A stretch of 64,000 nt of DNA from Haloarcula japonica DSM 6131 (lineage in GTDB: Archaea; Halobacteriota; Halobacteria; Halobacteriales; Haloarculaceae). The DNA lies in assembly GCF_000336635.1 (NCBI RefSeq), contig NZ_AOLY01000042.1:163136-227135 (forward strand), given 5' to 3'. The notes beneath the pieces are model-generated. The model was not told the origin of the DNA. It worked only from the letters and a program-made list of their open reading frames with translations, and made no database searches. Of this stretch, positions 51,351 to 60,055 are shown piece after piece (within the stretch, counting starts at the first letter, position 1; each line of letters starts with the position of its first letter). Both the position numbers and the translations under genes were made by a program.

Positions 51351-52550
51351 CTATTCGTCTCTACCGTCGGTGATAATTGTCGCGAGGTGCTCCCGGTCGA
51401 ACAGGTGCGCCTCTGTAAATTCTTCGGGGAAGTACTGCTTCGCGTACCGTTCAATCATGAATAGGTTATGCAGCGGGCCGGTGTAGATTGGGCCGCCGCG
51501 AAACACCCTGTCATTCTGGACGGCCCGCAACCGACTGCCCACTTCGTGGTCTTTCATATAGGCGAGTACTGAGTTCTCGAACTCCTCTCGGGTCTTCCCC
51601 TCGCGATGGTATCGCAGAAGGAGTGAGTCCGGATCTATCTCCAGCAACGTCTCGTAATCGAGCGATTCCGAGCCGGAGTACCCTTCGACGCCGGTATCGG
51701 CAAAGGCGTCGGAAATTCCGAGCGTCTGGAAGTGTTCCTTGTTGGCTCCGTTCCCGCTGATCCGATACGGCGTGAACGCTTCCGGTTCCTCGCCGGCGAA
51801 CATGAGCGCGGCGTTCGGTCGTTGCTCCGATGCCGGGAGCCGAGCCTGCACCGTTTCGACCAGCTCGTCATGTATCGAGCGGATCGCCTCGAAGCGCGCC
51901 CGTTCCTGAACCATTTCAGCCACCTTCTCGAAGGCCTCGTACAGGCTGTAGTACTGGTAGTCGTGCCAGTCGTCAGTCCGCCGGAAGATGAGGTTCCCGA
52001 GAAACGGTGCGACGTTCTCCCGAATCTCTGTGAGGTCCGACTGATTCCACGCCCCAAGCCAGTCGATAAGCGCGTTGGGATCGATGAGGTGCAGGTCTGC
52101 GTCCATCTCGTAGAACGGTTCCTTCGAGACGCCGTCGTTCCAGAGCTGTGTGAGCCCATCGAGGTCAATAGACACTCCATCAAGTTCCTCGTAGTGCAGC
52201 GTCTTGTATCGTCCACGGTACCAGATCGACTGTACTGCATCGCCGTGACCGAGCGCGACCAGCATGTCGATGTAATCCGCGGTGAACGGGGCGATTGTCT
52301 CGGGCACAGTTTCGAACTCGACGGTGCCGACTGGCTCCATCGTCACCGAATACGGTCCGTCGGAAGTCACTGGCTCGGTAGCGCTCGGTTCGGTATCCGT
52401 GGTACTGTCGTCGGTCCCGGTTTCCGCAGATTTCGGACTGCTGTCGCCCGAACATCCGGCGAGTAATCCACCGAGGGCGAGTGTCCCACCGCCTTTCACG
52501 ACTTCTCTCCGCGTCGGTCGTTCGAACGTCGCTCCGTCCGGGTCAGTCAT
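51351..52550 (-). CDS. siderophore/iron ABC transporter binding lipoprotein 1
   Basis: A 399-residue Tat-type lipoprotein (TRREVVKGGG then LLAGCSGDS) with the FecB/periplasmic-binding fold: YSVTMEPVGTVEFETVPETI, DYIDMLVALGHGDAV, PFYEMDADLHLIDPNALID, and LEIDPDSLLLRYHREG. Its ATG overlaps the stop of the next gene upstream (ATGA), so it is the last of three cotranscribed, homologous binding proteins. No permease or ATPase lies nearby; a shared transporter must be elsewhere. The pocket is not identifiable here, so siderophore versus heme or cobalamin remains open. Confidence 0.84.
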   Translation of the reverse strand: MTDPDGATFERPTRREVVKGGGTLALGGLLAGCSGDSSPKSAETGTDDSTTDTEPSATEPVTSDGPYSVTMEPVGTVEFETVPETIAPFTADYIDMLVALGHGDAVQSIWYRGRYKTLHYEELDGVSIDLDGLTQLWNDGVSKEPFYEMDADLHLIDPNALIDWLGAWNQSDLTEIRENVAPFLGNLIFRRTDDWHDYQYYSLYEAFEKVAEMVQERARFEAIRSIHDELVETVQARLPASEQRPNAALMFAGEEPEAFTPYRISGNGANKEHFQTLGISDAFADTGVEGYSGSESLDYETLLEIDPDSLLLRYHREGKTREEFENSVLAYMKDHEVGSRLRAVQNDRVFRGGPIYTGPLHNLFMIERYAKQYFPEEFTEAHLFDREHLATIITDGRDE

Positions 52551-53728
52551 TCGAACTCACCCGTGACGATATCGGCGATTTGCTGTCGGTCGAAGAGTTC
52601 GGTGTCGGAGGTTACGTCGCCGAAGATATCTGGATAGAGCTGCTGGGCCGCCCGCTCGGTCAAAAAGAAATTGTGAATCGGACCCTGCCGAAGGTAGCCA
52701 CCGCGATACACGCGTCCGTTCTGTACCGCGGTCAGTTGACTGCCGACGGTGTGGTCCTGCATGAACCGCAGGACGGTCTCCCGGAACTCGGTCGCAGATT
52801 TTCGCTCGTGGCCGCGGACGAGGATAACGTCTGGATCGACCGCTAGAAGGGTTTCGTAGTCGTACTCGCCCCGGTTGGTCGTACTGAGGTTCTCGATATC
52901 GGTTCCGGCGAGCGCATCGGTAACACCGAGGTCACGCCACTGCTTCTTGCTCGTGCCGTTATCGTTCAGTCGATAGGGCGAGAACGACTCCGGTTCGTCG
53001 GAGCCCTCGAACGTAAGGAGGACGTTCGGACGCTCCTCAGCTGGCGGGAGCTGACTCTGCAGGTCCGCAATGTAGTCGTCGTGTAGCTGCCTGAACGCCT
53101 TGTACCGTGCCTGTTCCTGAAAGACCTCCGCGACCTTCTCGAAGGCTTGATACAGCGTGTAATACCGGTAGTCGTGCCACTCGTCGGAGCGACGGAAGAT
53201 CAGATTCCCCACGAACGGGGCGACGTTTTCGGCGATCTCGTCGACGTCCGACTGCGACCAGTCGAACCAGTTGACGAGCATCTGTGTGTCATAGAGATGG
53301 ACGTCGCTGTCGAGTTCGTAAAACTCCTCTTTCGTTCGGACTTCCGGATACGCGTCAATCGTCTCCTGGTCGACGGACACTCCGGGGAGTTCATCGTAGA
53401 CGTACGTGTAGTAGCGGTCCGCCCCGCCGATACCTGTGAGGCCATCGGCCTGCCCGAGGGCCACGCCCATATCGGCGTAAGTGCCACCGTAAGGGAGCCA
53501 TCGCTCGGGAACCGTCTGGAACGTAACGTCGCCCACCGGCTCCATGGTGACAGTATAGGACTCCGTCCCAGTTGCCGTGGCTGTCTCCTCATTCTCGGCT
53601 GTGGTGGACTCTGTGGCAGTATTGCCGGAACATCCGGCGAGCAAACTGCCGCCCACAATCAGCCCGCCACCCTTGATATAATCTCTGCGTGTCGGCTGTT
53701 CAAGCGTCGGTTTATCGCCGTCAGTCAC
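52547..53728 (-). CDS. siderophore/iron ABC transporter binding lipoprotein 2
   Basis: A 393-residue paralogue of the flanking proteins. Leader TRRDYIKGGGLIVGGSLLAG ends at the lipobox Cys; the core shows YTVTMEPVGDVTFQTVPERW, YADMGVALGQADGLTGIG, EFYELDSDVHLYD and LLAVDPDVILVRGHERKSA. GTG at 53728 overlaps the upstream stop. Of the three it resembles protein 1 most: NVAPFVGNLIFRRSDEWHDY here against NVAPFLGNLIFRRTDDWHDY there. Confidence 0.85.
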   Translation of the reverse strand: MTDGDKPTLEQPTRRDYIKGGGLIVGGSLLAGCSGNTATESTTAENEETATATGTESYTVTMEPVGDVTFQTVPERWLPYGGTYADMGVALGQADGLTGIGGADRYYTYVYDELPGVSVDQETIDAYPEVRTKEEFYELDSDVHLYDTQMLVNWFDWSQSDVDEIAENVAPFVGNLIFRRSDEWHDYRYYTLYQAFEKVAEVFQEQARYKAFRQLHDDYIADLQSQLPPAEERPNVLLTFEGSDEPESFSPYRLNDNGTSKKQWRDLGVTDALAGTDIENLSTTNRGEYDYETLLAVDPDVILVRGHERKSATEFRETVLRFMQDHTVGSQLTAVQNGRVYRGGYLRQGPIHNFFLTERAAQQLYPDIFGDVTSDTELFDRQQIADIVTGEFE

Positions 53729-54975
53729 TGTCCTTCACCCGTGATTATGTCAGCCACCCGCTGGCGGTCGAACAGCTGTTCCTCGACGGGGATTTCGGGG
53801 TACGGATCCCCGTCGACGTAGCCCGGCCATTCACCGAACTGGTCGGGGTACAGCTGTTTCGCGGTCATCTCCGTCTGGAACAGGTTCAGGATCGGACCCT
53901 GCCGACGGGCACCTTGTGCGTATATCCGCCCCTCTTGTACAGCGGTGATCTCTCTCGTCACCTCGTCGTATTCCAATTGCGACCGTATATCGGCGAGATT
54001 GTGCGACCCCGCCATTGGCCCGAGAACGAGCAGTACGTCCGGGTCGGCTTCGAGAAGCAATTCGGAGTCGAGCGTGATGTTCCGTCCGTTGTCACCGTAC
54101 CCGTCACCGACAGCATCGGCTAACGCATCGGTCGCACCCAGCGGGCGGGTGTGAGCAGCGTAGTAGCCCGGATAGTTCAGTTTGTAGCCCCAGATTTTCT
54201 CGTCGGATGTGGAGAACAGGACCACGGCCGCGCTCGGCCGCTCACGTTCCGACGGAAGGCCCGCCCTGATAGTCTGCATCATCGAGTCGCGGATAGATAC
54301 GAACGCCTCGTACCGTTCCCTCTCCTGAAAGACCGCCGCGATCTTCCCGAAGATTTCCCAGAGCGTATAGTATTCGTACGCATCGGCCCAGCCTGACGGC
54401 GGGTCCTGCTGCGTGCCGCTGAGCGTGTTCCCGAACCACGGGCCAACGTTCGAGCGTATCTCTTGGAGGCTACTGTCGTCCCATCTCTCGGCTGTGGCAA
54501 CCTTCGCTGGGTCCGCTATATGAACGTCGCTGTCGAGTTCGTACAGTTTCTCCTTTGACGGTGGCCACGAAGAGTACAGCCCGTCCCAGTCGACTGAGAC
54601 CCCCTCGAGTCGGTGGAGGAACTTCTGATACAACGATCGGTGGTATTCGGGCGCGTGCATCGCGTTGATCGCATCTCCTCGACCGAGTGCGACCAGCATG
54701 TCCACGTGGTGACCCAGTATCGTGAACACGTCCTGGGGTACTGATTCGAACTCGACAGTTCCCACGGGCGACATTGTAACAGCGTATCCGTCGCCAGCCG
54801 CTGTCGGTTCAGCCTTTGAGGCTGACTGGCTTCCTGTCCCCGTCTGAACCGGGTCTGGTTCTGAACCGGACTGGTCTACACAGCCCGCTAGCAAGCCGCC
54901 ACCCACCACCACGCCGCTATACTTCACGTAGTCACGTCTTGTCGGGGCCTCGCAGTTCGTGTCATCTCTCGACAT
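53725..54975 (-). CDS. siderophore/iron ABC transporter binding lipoprotein 3 (first in operon)
   Basis: A 416-residue lipoprotein, the promoter-proximal gene. Leader TRRDYVKYSGVVVGGGLLAG then Cys; core YAVTMSPVGTVEFESVPQDV, HHVDMLVALGRGDAINAM, KLYELDSDVHIADPAK and LLLEADPDVLLVLGPMAG. It is the most divergent of the three (SNVGPWFGNTLSGTQQDPPS replaces the RR-DWHDY segment), suggesting different ligand. Its ATG at 54975 lies next to the candidate iron box at 54981. Confidence 0.85.
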   Translation of the reverse strand: MSRDDTNCEAPTRRDYVKYSGVVVGGGLLAGCVDQSGSEPDPVQTGTGSQSASKAEPTAAGDGYAVTMSPVGTVEFESVPQDVFTILGHHVDMLVALGRGDAINAMHAPEYHRSLYQKFLHRLEGVSVDWDGLYSSWPPSKEKLYELDSDVHIADPAKVATAERWDDSSLQEIRSNVGPWFGNTLSGTQQDPPSGWADAYEYYTLWEIFGKIAAVFQERERYEAFVSIRDSMMQTIRAGLPSERERPSAAVVLFSTSDEKIWGYKLNYPGYYAAHTRPLGATDALADAVGDGYGDNGRNITLDSELLLEADPDVLLVLGPMAGSHNLADIRSQLEYDEVTREITAVQEGRIYAQGARRQGPILNLFQTEMTAKQLYPDQFGEWPGYVDGDPYPEIPVEEQLFDRQRVADIITGEGQ

Positions 54976-55269: not shown

Positions 55270-55743
55270 ATGGCTGACGAGGAAATCGACGACGTGGACA
55301 GGGCAATTCTGTACGCATTACAGGAGGATGCTCGAAACATGTCGTCCGGGGACATCGCAGAACGAACCGATACGTCCGACAGCACCGTCCGGAAGCGCAT
55401 TAACCATCTCGAGTCCAGCGAAATCGTCAAAGGCTACAGCGCTGATGTCGACTATCAGCAGGCGGGCTATCCGCTCCGGATGCTGCTCTACTGCACTGCA
55501 TCGATCCCCGAGCGAGGCGATTTAATCCCCGAAATCCTCGATATAGACGGTGTGGTATCGGTTCAGGAACTGGTCACCGGCGAGGAAAACCTCCTCGTGA
55601 CGGCCGTCGGCGAATCGGATAGCGATATCACCCCTGTCGCGCAGGCACTTCTCGATATGGGCTTGACGGTGGCCGACGAAGTACTCGTCCGAAGCCACGA
55701 GACGACGCCCTTCGGTAAGTTTGATTCCGGAAACGAGAGTTAG
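55270..55743 (+). CDS. Lrp/AsnC-family regulator divergent from the binding proteins
   Basis: A 157-residue regulator. IDDVDRAILYALQEDARNMS then SGDIAERTDTSDSTVRKRIN is the HTH; GYSADVDYQQAGYPLRMLLYCTA, IPEILDIDGVVSVQELVTGEENL form the RAM ligand domain. Upstream, in frame without a good start, the DNA encodes VKCPYCGHTS, a possible CxxCGH zinc-ribbon-like extension, so a longer protein from an unusual start (TTG at 55069 or ATG at 55108) cannot be excluded. ATG at 55270 is preferred. It faces away from the binding proteins across about 300 bp. Confidence 0.78.
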   Translation: MADEEIDDVDRAILYALQEDARNMSSGDIAERTDTSDSTVRKRINHLESSEIVKGYSADVDYQQAGYPLRMLLYCTASIPERGDLIPEILDIDGVVSVQELVTGEENLLVTAVGESDSDITPVAQALLDMGLTVADEVLVRSHETTPFGKFDSGNES

Positions 55744-56172
55744 CTGAGGACGGGACTGCTGTCGCAGGGCCGTCTCTCGGACGACTGCGTGCCCAGGGAC
55801 TACACGGCCAGCCAAGTCGTCGAAGTGACTGCCTCAGTTTCCATATCGGTCTGATTTTCGAGTGGCTTCATCGAACGGGTTGGTAATATCACCCCTGCTC
55901 ACCACGTGACTACTCTCTGATTAGACCACTGTGTGTACGCGTGATCAGGGACTCGCCGTCGATGGATTTTGCCGATAGGGGCCTCGAAGCCCCGCGAAAA
56001 CACTTTGAAGGTAAGTTCCGACTGATCGTCGCTGAAAAACATAATGTTCTATAATCTACTATTTTAGGAACAAATTGGTAGTATAGAAGGATTTAATAAC
56101 CAGTCCGTTCGCACTAGGGATGAAGACAACCAGAACCGATCAATCACAGTCTGTGATCGGTCACGAACAACG
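55744..56172. promoter_or_regulatory. spacer and leader of the dabB-dabA operon
   Basis: About 430 bp. The 3' part of the regulator is followed by a GGGGC-CTCGAA-GCCCC hairpin at 55978-55993, AT-rich sequence with box-A-like GATTTAATAACC at 56091-56102, then a strong inverted repeat at 56135-56161: ACCGAT, a 4-nt bulge CAAT, CACAG-T-CTGTG, ATCGGT. The latter ends 11 bp before the dabB start. No gene is seen. Confidence 0.5.
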
Positions 56173-57660
56173 ATGTCAGGACACAACTCATCAAGGACGG
56201 TCGGATCACTCCCGGACACGACGGCTGACTCGTCGCTCGTGCCCGTCGCACTCACATGGCTCGTGTGGTCGATGTTTGCCGCGAGCATTGCTGTGCTTGC
56301 TGTCCGGGTCCGAACCGGGTTCGTCTGGGAGATACCCGGCGCGGTCGCCATTGATGGGCTGACCGTTCTGATGTGGGTGGTCGTCACCTTCTTCAGCGGT
56401 ATCGTTCACAGCTACTCGCGCCGCTATCTGGCGGGCAGTCGCCTCAAAACACCCTTTTTCGCCACCGTGTTCGGCTTCACCGTGATCGTGATGGGGCTGG
56501 TGGCGGCTAACCACCTCGCCCTGTTCGGGGCGTTGTGGCTCGCAATGGGACTGCTGATGGCGAAACTCATCGGTATCGTCAGTGGCTGGGATCAGGCACA
56601 GGCTGCTGCCACGGTCGCCCGCAAGTACTTCATCGCCAGTAGCACGCTTCTCGGCGTCGCGCTGACAGCACTGTGGTGGGCGACCGGTGCGACTACGGTC
56701 TCCGGACTTACGACTGCTTCCGACTCACTCGGTGGCCCGGTGTGGCTGGTCGCCGCAGGCGCACTCGTGCTCGCAGCGATGATTCAGTCCGCCCTGATTC
56801 CGTTCCACGGCTGGCTCCTCTCCTCGATGACCGCACCGACGCCTGCCTCAGCCCTGATGCACGCCGGGTTTGTCAACGCGGGCGGCATTCTGTTGACTCG
56901 TTTCGCGCCGGTCATCTCCGTCGACCCCGTGCTCATGCTCGCAATCGTCGGCGTCGGTGGTGCTAGCGCCATCGGCGGGAAACTCCTGAAATCGGTTCAG
57001 ACTGACATCAAGGGCAAACTCGGCTGTTCGACGGTCGGACAGATGGGATTCATGATCATGCAGGCCGGCCTCGGCTTCTTCGGGGCTGCTATCACCCACC
57101 TCATCCTGCACGGTTTCTACAAGGCTTACCAGTTCCTCAGTGCTGGCGGACAGGTCGAACACACTACCCCGAGCGAAGGGACGCCACACACCATCGGAAT
57201 GACGACGAGCATCGTTGGCGGCGTCATCACACTGCTGACCGGGCTCGCCGGCGGCGCGGTGTTTACAGTGCTGACAGGGAAGGGAACGCATGTCGACAGC
57301 GGGCTCCTGTTGACCTTCTTCGTGGTATTCACGACGCTCCATGCGGCCCGCAACGCCGTCCAGCACACTTCGCTTCCGCCGGCGGCCCGTTACGGGGCTG
57401 TCCCGGTAGTCTTCTTCCCGGCCATCGTCATCTACGCCGCAGTCTACACGGGCGTCTCGGGGCTCATGCCCGTCAGCCCAGCAACGACCGAACTGACGCT
57501 GCTCCACGGCATAATCGCCGTCTTCTTCGTCGGCATCTACATCGGCATCGAGACCGGGATCCACGAGCGTAGCCAGCGCCTCTACGTGGCGCTGCTTAAC
57601 GCCGGCCAGCCGTCGGCCGACACTATGCTGACCACGACGGAGGACTACAATGAGTACTGA
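56173..57660 (+). CDS. dabB: DabB, proton-conducting membrane subunit of inorganic carbon complex
   Basis: A 495-residue protein with about 13-14 membrane segments, homologous to antiporter-like complex I subunits. Signals: IPFHGWLLSSMTAPTPASALMHAG (family TM7-8 segment) and SVQTDIKGKLGCSTVGQMGFM (the conserved Lys-bearing region), but with no other complex I gene nearby. Its partner dabA overlaps its 3' end by 11 bp. In the DAB system DabB couples cation flow to hydration of CO2 by DabA. ATG at 56173 begins a short Ser/Thr-rich tail before the first helix; the start follows the leader palindrome. Confidence 0.86.
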   Translation: MSGHNSSRTVGSLPDTTADSSLVPVALTWLVWSMFAASIAVLAVRVRTGFVWEIPGAVAIDGLTVLMWVVVTFFSGIVHSYSRRYLAGSRLKTPFFATVFGFTVIVMGLVAANHLALFGALWLAMGLLMAKLIGIVSGWDQAQAAATVARKYFIASSTLLGVALTALWWATGATTVSGLTTASDSLGGPVWLVAAGALVLAAMIQSALIPFHGWLLSSMTAPTPASALMHAGFVNAGGILLTRFAPVISVDPVLMLAIVGVGGASAIGGKLLKSVQTDIKGKLGCSTVGQMGFMIMQAGLGFFGAAITHLILHGFYKAYQFLSAGGQVEHTTPSEGTPHTIGMTTSIVGGVITLLTGLAGGAVFTVLTGKGTHVDSGLLLTFFVVFTTLHAARNAVQHTSLPPAARYGAVPVVFFPAIVIYAAVYTGVSGLMPVSPATTELTLLHGIIAVFFVGIYIGIETGIHERSQRLYVALLNAGQPSADTMLTTTEDYNEY

Positions 57661-60055
57661 ATCCGCCATCCACGACAGCATCGACACCGCAGCGACCACC
57701 GTCGGCTCCCTCTGGCCCATCCACTCGTTCGTGACGGCAAACCCCCTCGCTGGGTTCGAGAACCAGCCGTTCGGTGAGGCGGTCACACAGGCAGCCGATC
57801 TGCTGGGTGGCCGTGGCTACCCTAGCGCCGAGACGTTCCGTGCAGCGCTAGAGCGCGGCCAGATAGACCCGGAGATTCTCGACGCGGAACTCTCCGAGGC
57901 CGGCTACGAGGATGACCCAGAGATACTGCTCGACCACATGGCCAACACGGCCGATGCAACGGACAGTGATTCCGATACCGCCACCGACCGCGTCGATCAG
58001 GTCCTGACGAAATGGCTATCGGCGTTCCTCGACGAGGGGAGCGCCCACTGGTCGATGCCGAACCGCGAAGCAGGGTTCTACACCGCCTTCCGCGGCGTGG
58101 CCGAACACGACGGCGATATCCCCGACGAGGGGATCATTACCGATCTGCCGGAGACGCCCAGCGAGACCATCGAAACAGTGCTTGCGCCGCACCCGGAGAG
58201 CCAGTGGGTGCCCATCTTCGAGGAGCAACTGGCTGCCCTGCCGGGCTGGACGGGACTCATCAAGCAGCGCGCCGATGACGAGGGTGCGTGGCAGTCGGCG
58301 TACCCGATTTCGCTGGCGGGGTACCTCGCGGCGCGTCTGGCCCTGCTAGATGCCGTCGATGCTGCTATCGCTCCCTCGAACACCAGCATCGATCCGGACC
58401 CGACCGCCGAACTCGCCGGGGCGTTCCTGCGCGCCTGGGAGGCGAGCTACCGCGGTGACCTCGTCGAGACCGTCTCGGTGGAGAGCCAATCGCTCGCAGA
58501 CAGCGACACGTCGGGCCGCCCGGACGCCCAGATGGTCTTCTGTATCGACACCCGCTCGGAGATCATCCGCCGCCATATCGAGGCCACGGGCGACTACGAA
58601 ACCCACGGCTACGCTGGTTTCTTCGGGGTTCCGATGGAGTACCAGGGCTACGACACCGACGTGTCAGTCGACGCCTGCCCGCCGATTCTCGACCCCCAGC
58701 ACCACGTCACCGACGTTCCGACCGACGACGACACCCGAGAGAGCCACGACCGCTTATCTGGTATCCGTGAAACCGCCGACGAAATTATCGAGACGCTGGA
58801 GGCCAACGCCGCCACGGCCTACGGCTTCGTCGAGACTGCCGGGAGCGGGTACGGCCTCGCCCTCGCGGCCCGTACGCTTGTCCCCGGACGCGTGCAGGAA
58901 CTGTTGGATGTGGCCGACGACTCGGTGCCCGATGAACACGAGTTCTGTGAGCCGCTCGTTCACCATCAACACACCTACACCGGTGATTTGCCGGTGGGGC
59001 TGACTACCGATGAGAAAGTCGAGTACGCCGCCACCGCGTTCGACCTGATGGGCTGGGAGACGTTCAGTCGCCTCGTCGTCTTCACCGGGCACGCCAGCGA
59101 GACGACGAACAATCCCTACGATTCGAGTCTTGACTGTGGTGCCTGCGCCGGCAACCCCGGCGGCCCGAACGCCCGCGTGCTGGCGGCGATCTGCAATGAC
59201 ACCGAAGTCCGATCCGCGCTCCGCGACCGCGGCTTCGAAATCCCCGAAGACACCGTTTTCCTCGCCGGCGAACACAACACGACGACCGACGAAGTGGAAC
59301 TGTACGACAGCGATGTGCCCGAGAGCCACACTGACGACCTCGAACAGTTGCGCGCCGATCTCGCCACCGCCCGCGAGAACGCGGCCGCTGAGCGTGCCGA
59401 GTCGATGAGGAGCGACGCATCGTCGGGGGTCAACGAGACGGAGCGCCGCGCCGCCGACTGGGCTGAGACCCGCCCCGAGTGGGGCCTAGCCGGCAACGCC
59501 GGTTTCGTCATCGGCCCCCGCGAACTGACGAGCGGTGTCGACCTCGACGGTCGCGCCTTCCTCCACTCGTATGACTGGTCGGCCGATCCCGACGGTGAGG
59601 CGCTGGAGGCGATACTCACCGGCCCAATGGTCGTCACCCAGTGGATCAACACACAGTACTACTTCTCGACGGTCGATAACGCCGTCTACGGGAGCGGCTC
59701 AAAAGTGACCCACAACCCCGTCGGCAACGTCGGCGTTTATCAGGGCAACGGCGGCGACCTGATGACCGGCCTCCCGCTACAGTCGCTGATGGCTGCCGAC
59801 GACGACCCGTACCACCAGCCGCTCCGCCTCTCGACGGTCATCCACGCGCCCGTCGACTGCGTCAACGACGTCCTGGCTGACCACGCGGAACTAACGGATC
59901 TGCTCGACAACAACTGGCTCTCTCTGACAGTTGTCGACCCTACGCAGGACCACCGTGCCTTCGAGTACGAGCATGATTTGGAGTGGTCGCCTGCGTCTGA
60001 ATTATCCGAAACCGACCTCGCGGACCCGACCGCTCCTGCGGTCTCTGACGACTAA
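57650..60055 (+). CDS. dabA: DabA (DUF2309), zinc hydration subunit of inorganic carbon complex
   Basis: An 801-residue soluble protein matching DabA. The zinc set is visible: Cys298 and Asp300 in QMVFCIDTRSEIIRRH, His481 in VVFTGHASETTNN, and Cys496 in SSLDCGACAGNPGGPNAR. The spacing His to Cys of 15 equals that of the studied Halothiobacillus protein (His524, Cys539), and the CxD matches Cys351/Asp353. NPVGNVGVYQGNGGDLMTGL and QPLRLSTVIHAP are the conserved C-terminal segments. It should hydrate CO2 to bicarbonate, drawn one way by DabB-linked cation flow. Acidic loops (ATDSDSDTATD) show halophilic adaptation. Confidence 0.9.
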   Translation: MSTESAIHDSIDTAATTVGSLWPIHSFVTANPLAGFENQPFGEAVTQAADLLGGRGYPSAETFRAALERGQIDPEILDAELSEAGYEDDPEILLDHMANTADATDSDSDTATDRVDQVLTKWLSAFLDEGSAHWSMPNREAGFYTAFRGVAEHDGDIPDEGIITDLPETPSETIETVLAPHPESQWVPIFEEQLAALPGWTGLIKQRADDEGAWQSAYPISLAGYLAARLALLDAVDAAIAPSNTSIDPDPTAELAGAFLRAWEASYRGDLVETVSVESQSLADSDTSGRPDAQMVFCIDTRSEIIRRHIEATGDYETHGYAGFFGVPMEYQGYDTDVSVDACPPILDPQHHVTDVPTDDDTRESHDRLSGIRETADEIIETLEANAATAYGFVETAGSGYGLALAARTLVPGRVQELLDVADDSVPDEHEFCEPLVHHQHTYTGDLPVGLTTDEKVEYAATAFDLMGWETFSRLVVFTGHASETTNNPYDSSLDCGACAGNPGGPNARVLAAICNDTEVRSALRDRGFEIPEDTVFLAGEHNTTTDEVELYDSDVPESHTDDLEQLRADLATARENAAAERAESMRSDASSGVNETERRAADWAETRPEWGLAGNAGFVIGPRELTSGVDLDGRAFLHSYDWSADPDGEALEAILTGPMVVTQWINTQYYFSTVDNAVYGSGSKVTHNPVGNVGVYQGNGGDLMTGLPLQSLMAADDDPYHQPLRLSTVIHAPVDCVNDVLADHAELTDLLDNNWLSLTVVDPTQDHRAFEYEHDLEWSPASELSETDLADPTAPAVSDD

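Follow-up and report, generated by a model that had tools for sequence, protein, structure and literature searches.

A probable DAB-type inorganic-carbon system and its linked Lrp/AsnC-type regulator in haloarchaea

Introduction

Two overlapping genes of a heterotrophic haloarchaeon, dabB and dabA, raise the question of whether such an organism possesses a genuine DAB-type inorganic-carbon system, and what need for bicarbonate the system would serve. The locus lies in the window, the whole stretch of 64,000 nucleotides of DNA that was analysed, and the positions given below are those of the window. The original prediction regarded DABs as a bacterial system, a view that the literature had already overtaken. 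Halobacteria have been named among the DAB carriers (PMC10880623), DABs have been reported in Euryarchaeota (PMC13144422), and HVO_2410/HVO_2411 of Haloferax volcanii are annotated as dabAB, a CO2 transporter predicted by homology (PMC8305020). A literature search found no experimental work on archaeal DABs. The dab genes are present in 110 of 174 haloarchaeal genomes and, in a larger draw, in 235 of 391 Halobacteria; they are a common haloarchaeal trait and no surprise.

The dabB–dabA gene pair

The membrane subunit DabB, a NuoL/Mrp-like protein of 495 amino acids (PF00361, PF00662), is encoded at 56173..57660 on the forward strand. The cytoplasmic subunit DabA, a beta-carbonic anhydrase (CA)-like catalytic protein of 801 amino acids, follows on the same strand at 57650..60055. 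In a profile search, DabA matches PF10070 over its whole length (747 of 747 positions) with 900.8 bits, the cut-off being 25 bits, and its reading frame has no internal stop. Both frames are whole and share 11 nt (57650-57660), in agreement with the prediction of an intact, overlapping pair. The start proposed at 56135 has to be moved, as this position is no dabB codon but falls in the leader, 38 nt ahead of the gene and in another frame; the ATG is at 56173. The nearest solved structure to DabA is DabA2 of H. neapolitanus (9rd0_A, E = 1.4e-110), and the nearest solved chain to DabB is DabB2 of the same complex (9rd0_B). Such similarity to a complex of solved structure settles the fold. At the level of sequence, chance matches of DabA and DabB are excluded by the scores.

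Many NuoL/MrpA-type profiles also match DabB, and genes of this kind are often annotated accordingly. DabB could thus be a subunit of complex I or of an Mrp antiporter, with dabA as an incidental neighbour. This is extremely improbable: all of the NCBIfam matches fall far under their cut-off (the best reaches 200.6 vs 380 bits), the overlap of approximately 11 nt with dabA is kept in nearly all relatives compared, the closest solved chain is DabB2, and nuo or mrp partners are absent at the locus.

The assignment to a Haloarcula-type host is upheld by DabA, which is 91% identical to its counterparts in H. sebkhae, H. argentinensis and the H. marismortui plasmid pNG700, with which the neighbourhood is syntenic. 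Three tandem genes for Peripla_BP_2 substrate-binding proteins (PF01497) are located at 51351-54975 on the reverse strand, and these stand beside dab in pNG700 too. Halorubrum sp. CSM-61 carries two different dab loci (L011, L035), whose DabA proteins are 77% and 73% identical to that of the window.

Zinc site and proton path

The segment C298-I-D300-T-R302 of DabA (58541..58555, forward strand) contains two of the zinc ligands and the dyad residues. It aligns with C351, D353 and R355 of H. neapolitanus DabA2 (9rd0) and is invariant in 92 haloarchaeal loci. The other two ligands, H481 and C496 (59090..59137, forward strand), align with H524 and C539. The ligands are spaced 2/181/15 here vs 2/171/15 in DabA2, so the four ligands with near-standard spacing are indeed found. 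E395 (58832..58834, forward strand) aligns with Glu444, a residue of the membrane “finger” with a role in the proton path (PMC13144422). In DabB, the residues S226, H230, K280, S286, H309, H313 and K317 align with the DabB2 proton-path residues S256, H260, K310, S316, H339, H343 and K347.

Mutation of these seven DabB residues and of the zinc-site residues impaired DAB2 (PMC13144422). Across the 92 haloarchaeal loci, the zinc-site, proton-path and finger-Glu residues are invariant or nearly so, and a further 20 loci of greater divergence show no change at the DabB proton-path residues either. All residues at the zinc site and along the proton path whose mutation impairs DAB2 are kept without change, or almost so, in approximately 110 haloarchaeal sequences. 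The gene pair very probably represents a genuine DAB-type inorganic-carbon system, with homology and co-occurrence pointing to transport. Because of the residue identity with DAB2, hydration of CO2 would be its chemistry.

Ion pairs of DabB and the coupling ion

The ion pairs of DAB2 (R182, D185/K235), which adjust its coupling, are missing in this DabB. The alignment places I154, S157 and Q205 at these positions, Q205 (56785-56787, forward strand) replacing K235 of DabB2. Position 235 is Gln in all haloarchaeal sequences that have a letter there (91 and 20 further). Replacement of R182, D185 and K235 by Ala in DAB2 lowers the growth yield by 30-60% without abolishing growth, and the mutants still complement (PMC13144422). 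These ion pairs are a modulating feature of DABs, not a defining one. Proteobacterial DabBs mostly retain the charges, with Ala at 235 in Leisingera; Nocardia DabB retains two of the three residues, and the one Staphylococcus sequence compared retains none. With the three residues lost, coupling or ion choice in the haloarchaeal DabB could differ from that of DAB2.

It is conceivable that the same complex is Na+-coupled, functioning as a Na+/bicarbonate symporter, as proposed for staphylococcal MpsAB, and drawing on the steep haloarchaeal Na+ gradient. The shared loss of R182, D185 and K235 in haloarchaea and the Staphylococcus sequence, against their general retention in proteobacterial DabB, is consistent with this, as is the rescue of Na+-sensitive E. 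coli by MpsAB and not by DAB2 (PMC13144422). Na+ coupling is nonetheless unlikely. The intact zinc site makes CO2 hydration the parsimonious chemistry, every proton-path residue and the finger Glu are retained, the comparison comprises a single Staphylococcus sequence, and no residue is known to mark Na+ use. The preferred reading is a CO2-hydrating complex that most likely uses H+. As a natural variant without the ion pairs, haloarchaeal DabB can serve as a comparison for the unsettled question of H+ vs Na+.

Complementarity with carbonic anhydrase

Genomes were classed as CA-less where they have no recognisable beta-CA (PF00484), and the search for other CA classes covered gamma-CA only. By this definition, beta-CA is present in 359 of the 391 haloarchaeal genomes and absent from 32. 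A few weak PF00484 matches may represent a degenerate beta-CA-like relative found between the regulator gene and dabB. The dab genes are carried by 31 of the 32 beta-CA-less genomes vs 204 of the 359 beta-CA-positive ones (Fisher P = 1.6e-6). The best CA is canonical (CxDxR...GHxxC site) in all 20 of the dab-less genomes sampled. Among the 87 dab genomes for which a best CA was listed, 38 have this CA gene no more than 6 kb from dabA, which forms a further link between the two functions.

Such a pattern might stem from phylogeny, or from carbonic anhydrases that were overlooked, rather than from shared function. The genomes are related, the losses of CA cluster in certain genera, and roughly one in two beta-CA-less genomes encodes a gamma-CA-like protein homologous to one in the window genome. 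This explanation is quite unlikely to account for the signal, which holds when labels are permuted within genera (31 dab genomes among the CA-less observed vs 26.4 expected, P = 0.0006). There are 14 genera with CA-less genomes, 13 of which have dab in all such genomes. A single genus (g13) contains four genomes with dab and no CA, five with CA and no dab, two with both and none with neither.

The gamma-CA-like homologs weaken the case for DAB as the sole source of bicarbonate in the genomes that have them. As a full explanation of the beta-CA-less genomes, gamma-CA was rejected, as no more than about half of these have the homolog and the window-genome protein (G000:C39:8638-9147; L112/L176) has Asn at the expected third zinc His. 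A beta-CA-like gene is located between the regulator and dabB at L096:3666-4331 and L205:203-907, and also at L009, L011 and L128. Its product retains the Cys and GHxxC and has lost the Asp/Arg dyad (e.g., CSMSS for CSDSR), making it a possible sensor or pseudoenzyme.

By this distribution, DAB and CA would stand in for each other as sources of bicarbonate in haloarchaea. In the Firmicutes, MpsAB and CA are known to be interchangeable (PMC8552792), and no archaeal report of this type was found in the literature search. The window genome has one canonical beta-CA (L134) and a second CA (L135) with a non-canonical active-site pattern, so the phenotype of a dab deletion could be masked. High-salt proteins may also fail to fold in E. 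coli. For these two reasons, the lack of a low-CO2 phenotype together with failed complementation of E. coli, put forward as a refutation of the pump, would be a weak one.

The methylaspartate-cycle question

Propionyl-CoA carboxylation consumes bicarbonate, and the marker of the methylaspartate cycle, glutamate mutase (PF06368), is present in the window genome. Both points favour the earlier suggestion that the pump mainly serves this cycle and propionyl-CoA carboxylase. Over 174 haloarchaeal genomes, the marker and dab show no association, with dab present in 39 of 64 marker-positive vs 71 of 110 marker-negative genomes (P = 0.74). In one family (f4), dab is found in 47 of 62 genomes and the marker in only two. 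A main role in the methylaspartate cycle is thus very unlikely. Of the original proposal, the role in bicarbonate supply is backed by the CA/DAB complementarity, and the pathway offered as its reason falls away. The need for a bicarbonate pump looks general rather than pathway-specific.

The linked regulator and the promoter element

A regulator gene lies upstream of dabB at 55270..55743 on the forward strand (157 amino acids). Its reading frame is open from 55069, and the start adopted here follows the one annotated in H. marismortui. The N-terminal helix-turn-helix (HTH) is of the AsnC type (PF13404/PF13412; 42.2 bits for PF13404 vs a cut-off of 27). The C-terminal half has no Pfam match, AsnC_trans_reg (RAM) included, even at E up to 1, so the term “Lrp/AsnC-type” refers to the HTH only. 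Orthologs, defined by 64-100% identity and set apart by a clear gap from paralogs at 55% or less, are present in 109 of 110 dab genomes vs one of 64 dab-less genomes, and lie within 8 kb of dabA in 108 genomes. In the one dab genome that lacks an ortholog (G021), dab is at a contig end. Wherever the flank of a haloarchaeal locus is long enough, the regulator is upstream and on the same strand; a few of these loci are duplicates of each other. An amidohydrolase gene (PRK07213-like, below the cut-off) is often placed between the regulator and dabB on the opposite strand (L096:2502-3518 and approximately 36 other loci).

The only dab-less genome with a regulator ortholog (G129, 70% identity) is also devoid of beta-CA. 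At this locus (L202:5623-9061), the regulator adjoins an anaerobic CO dehydrogenase (CooS, TIGR01702) and a CooC-like ATPase, a context that hints at a response of the regulator to CO2/C1 status.

Upstream of dabB, a conserved block at 56032..56093 of the forward strand consists of AAcCATAATGTTCTATAATg, a spacer and CGAACgatTTGtGAAtAtAgatAGATTT, and runs into TTTAATA (56092..56098, forward strand). This TATA-like box has a conserved position and is read as the putative promoter of dabB. The element, whose core is AACATAATGTTCTATAAT at 56038-56055, is the proposed regulator site. The element matrix scores above 12 in 93 of 106 upstream regions and shuffled sequences never score above -20.8, a contrast that is somewhat overstated, since these loci also served to train the matrix. 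With respect to the start codon, the element begins approximately 156 nt upstream (IQR 153-159), and this position is fixed across divergent loci, a feature independent of the training bias. The core matrix finds a match in 82 of 99 loci. The exact 18-bp core occurs once in the 4.28-Mb genome, and there are three sites with three mismatches, which by our own estimate is about the number expected by chance.

Loci with the most divergent regulators are mostly without the element (motif in one of six). Motif presence tracks the divergence of dabB just as closely as that of the regulator, so binding of the element by the regulator is something that we infer. The placement of the element upstream of the TATA-like box suggests activation. 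No Rfam match to a structured RNA was found in the dabB leader. In one genome (G037:C1; L203/L204), the regulator is 56 kb from dab, and the promoter element nonetheless precedes dabB.

Proposed mechanism and significance

In the proposed mechanism, CO2 would diffuse into the cell and be hydrated at the buried zinc site of the DabB-anchored DabA. A flow of ions through DabB, most likely of H+ driven by the membrane potential, would gate this site such that the reaction proceeds only towards bicarbonate, giving an energy-coupled (vectorial) carbonic anhydrase. The pump would do the job of a free CA, but against a gradient, and would supply cytoplasmic bicarbonate in a heterotrophic haloarchaeon for general carboxylations, namely those of biotin carboxylases and PEP carboxylase and the synthesis of carbamoyl phosphate. 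Its own Lrp/AsnC-type regulator would act as a local activator of dabBA under CO2 or bicarbonate shortage, most likely by binding to the conserved element immediately ahead of the TATA-like box.

A wider and more tentative proposal, held with less than even confidence, is that haloarchaeal DABs form a distinct branch. The branch would combine altered control of DabB coupling, with neutral Gln in place of the K/R-acid ion pairs and possibly Na+, with a regulator of the Lrp/AsnC type that is dedicated to a single target and responds to inorganic-carbon or C1 status. In many haloarchaea, the pump would take the place of beta-CA, and the regulator would be re-used beside CO dehydrogenase in a lineage with neither dab nor beta-CA.

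The role of DABs in heterotrophic archaea becomes testable. If CA is dispensable only in the presence of dab, the haloarchaea would constitute a set of natural knock-outs for the study of bicarbonate supply. With its one predicted target in the genome, the regulator would be an archaeal switch responsive to CO2/bicarbonate, and genetically tractable species, Haloferax volcanii among them, would allow it to be tested. Reports of the CA/DAB complementarity, the regulator linkage, the conserved element or the ion-pair loss in haloarchaea were not found, which is weak evidence of novelty, as most subscription journals and all bioRxiv preprints lay outside the search.

Comparison with known systems

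A close relative is the DUF2309/proton-conducting subunit pair of H. marismortui pNG700 (RR_RS02435/RR_RS02440), which is syntenic, has the same upstream regulator and differs at the sequence level only (DabA approximately 91% and DabB approximately 93% identical). The Haloferax volcanii pair is a class-mate known from homology annotation, with no essential difference; Haloferax DabA sequences are mostly about 75% identical to that of the window.

With DAB2 of H. neapolitanus (DabA2/DabB2; PDB 9rd0/9rd8/9rd9; PMC13144422), the locus has in common the gene pair, the fold families, the zinc-site and proton-path residues and the finger Glu. Overall identity is low, however, the haloarchaeal DabB is without the ion pairs, and the window host is a heterotrophic archaeon with an Lrp/AsnC-type regulator at dab. 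MpsAB of S. aureus likewise belongs to a non-autotroph and is interchangeable with CA in that literature (PMC6689103, PMC8552792). The DabB ion pair is missing from the Staphylococcus relative compared, as in haloarchaea, and Na+ coupling has been argued for MpsAB (PMC13144422). The Staphylococcus plasmid locus examined has no Lrp-type regulator annotated directly upstream. Among the few plasmid-borne loci that make up the bacterial comparison, those of the proteobacteria (Leisingera, Rhizobium, Pseudoalteromonas, Pantoea) share the dabB-dabA order and usually have a divergent LysR-type regulator, whereas the haloarchaeal regulator is co-directional and of the Lrp/AsnC type.
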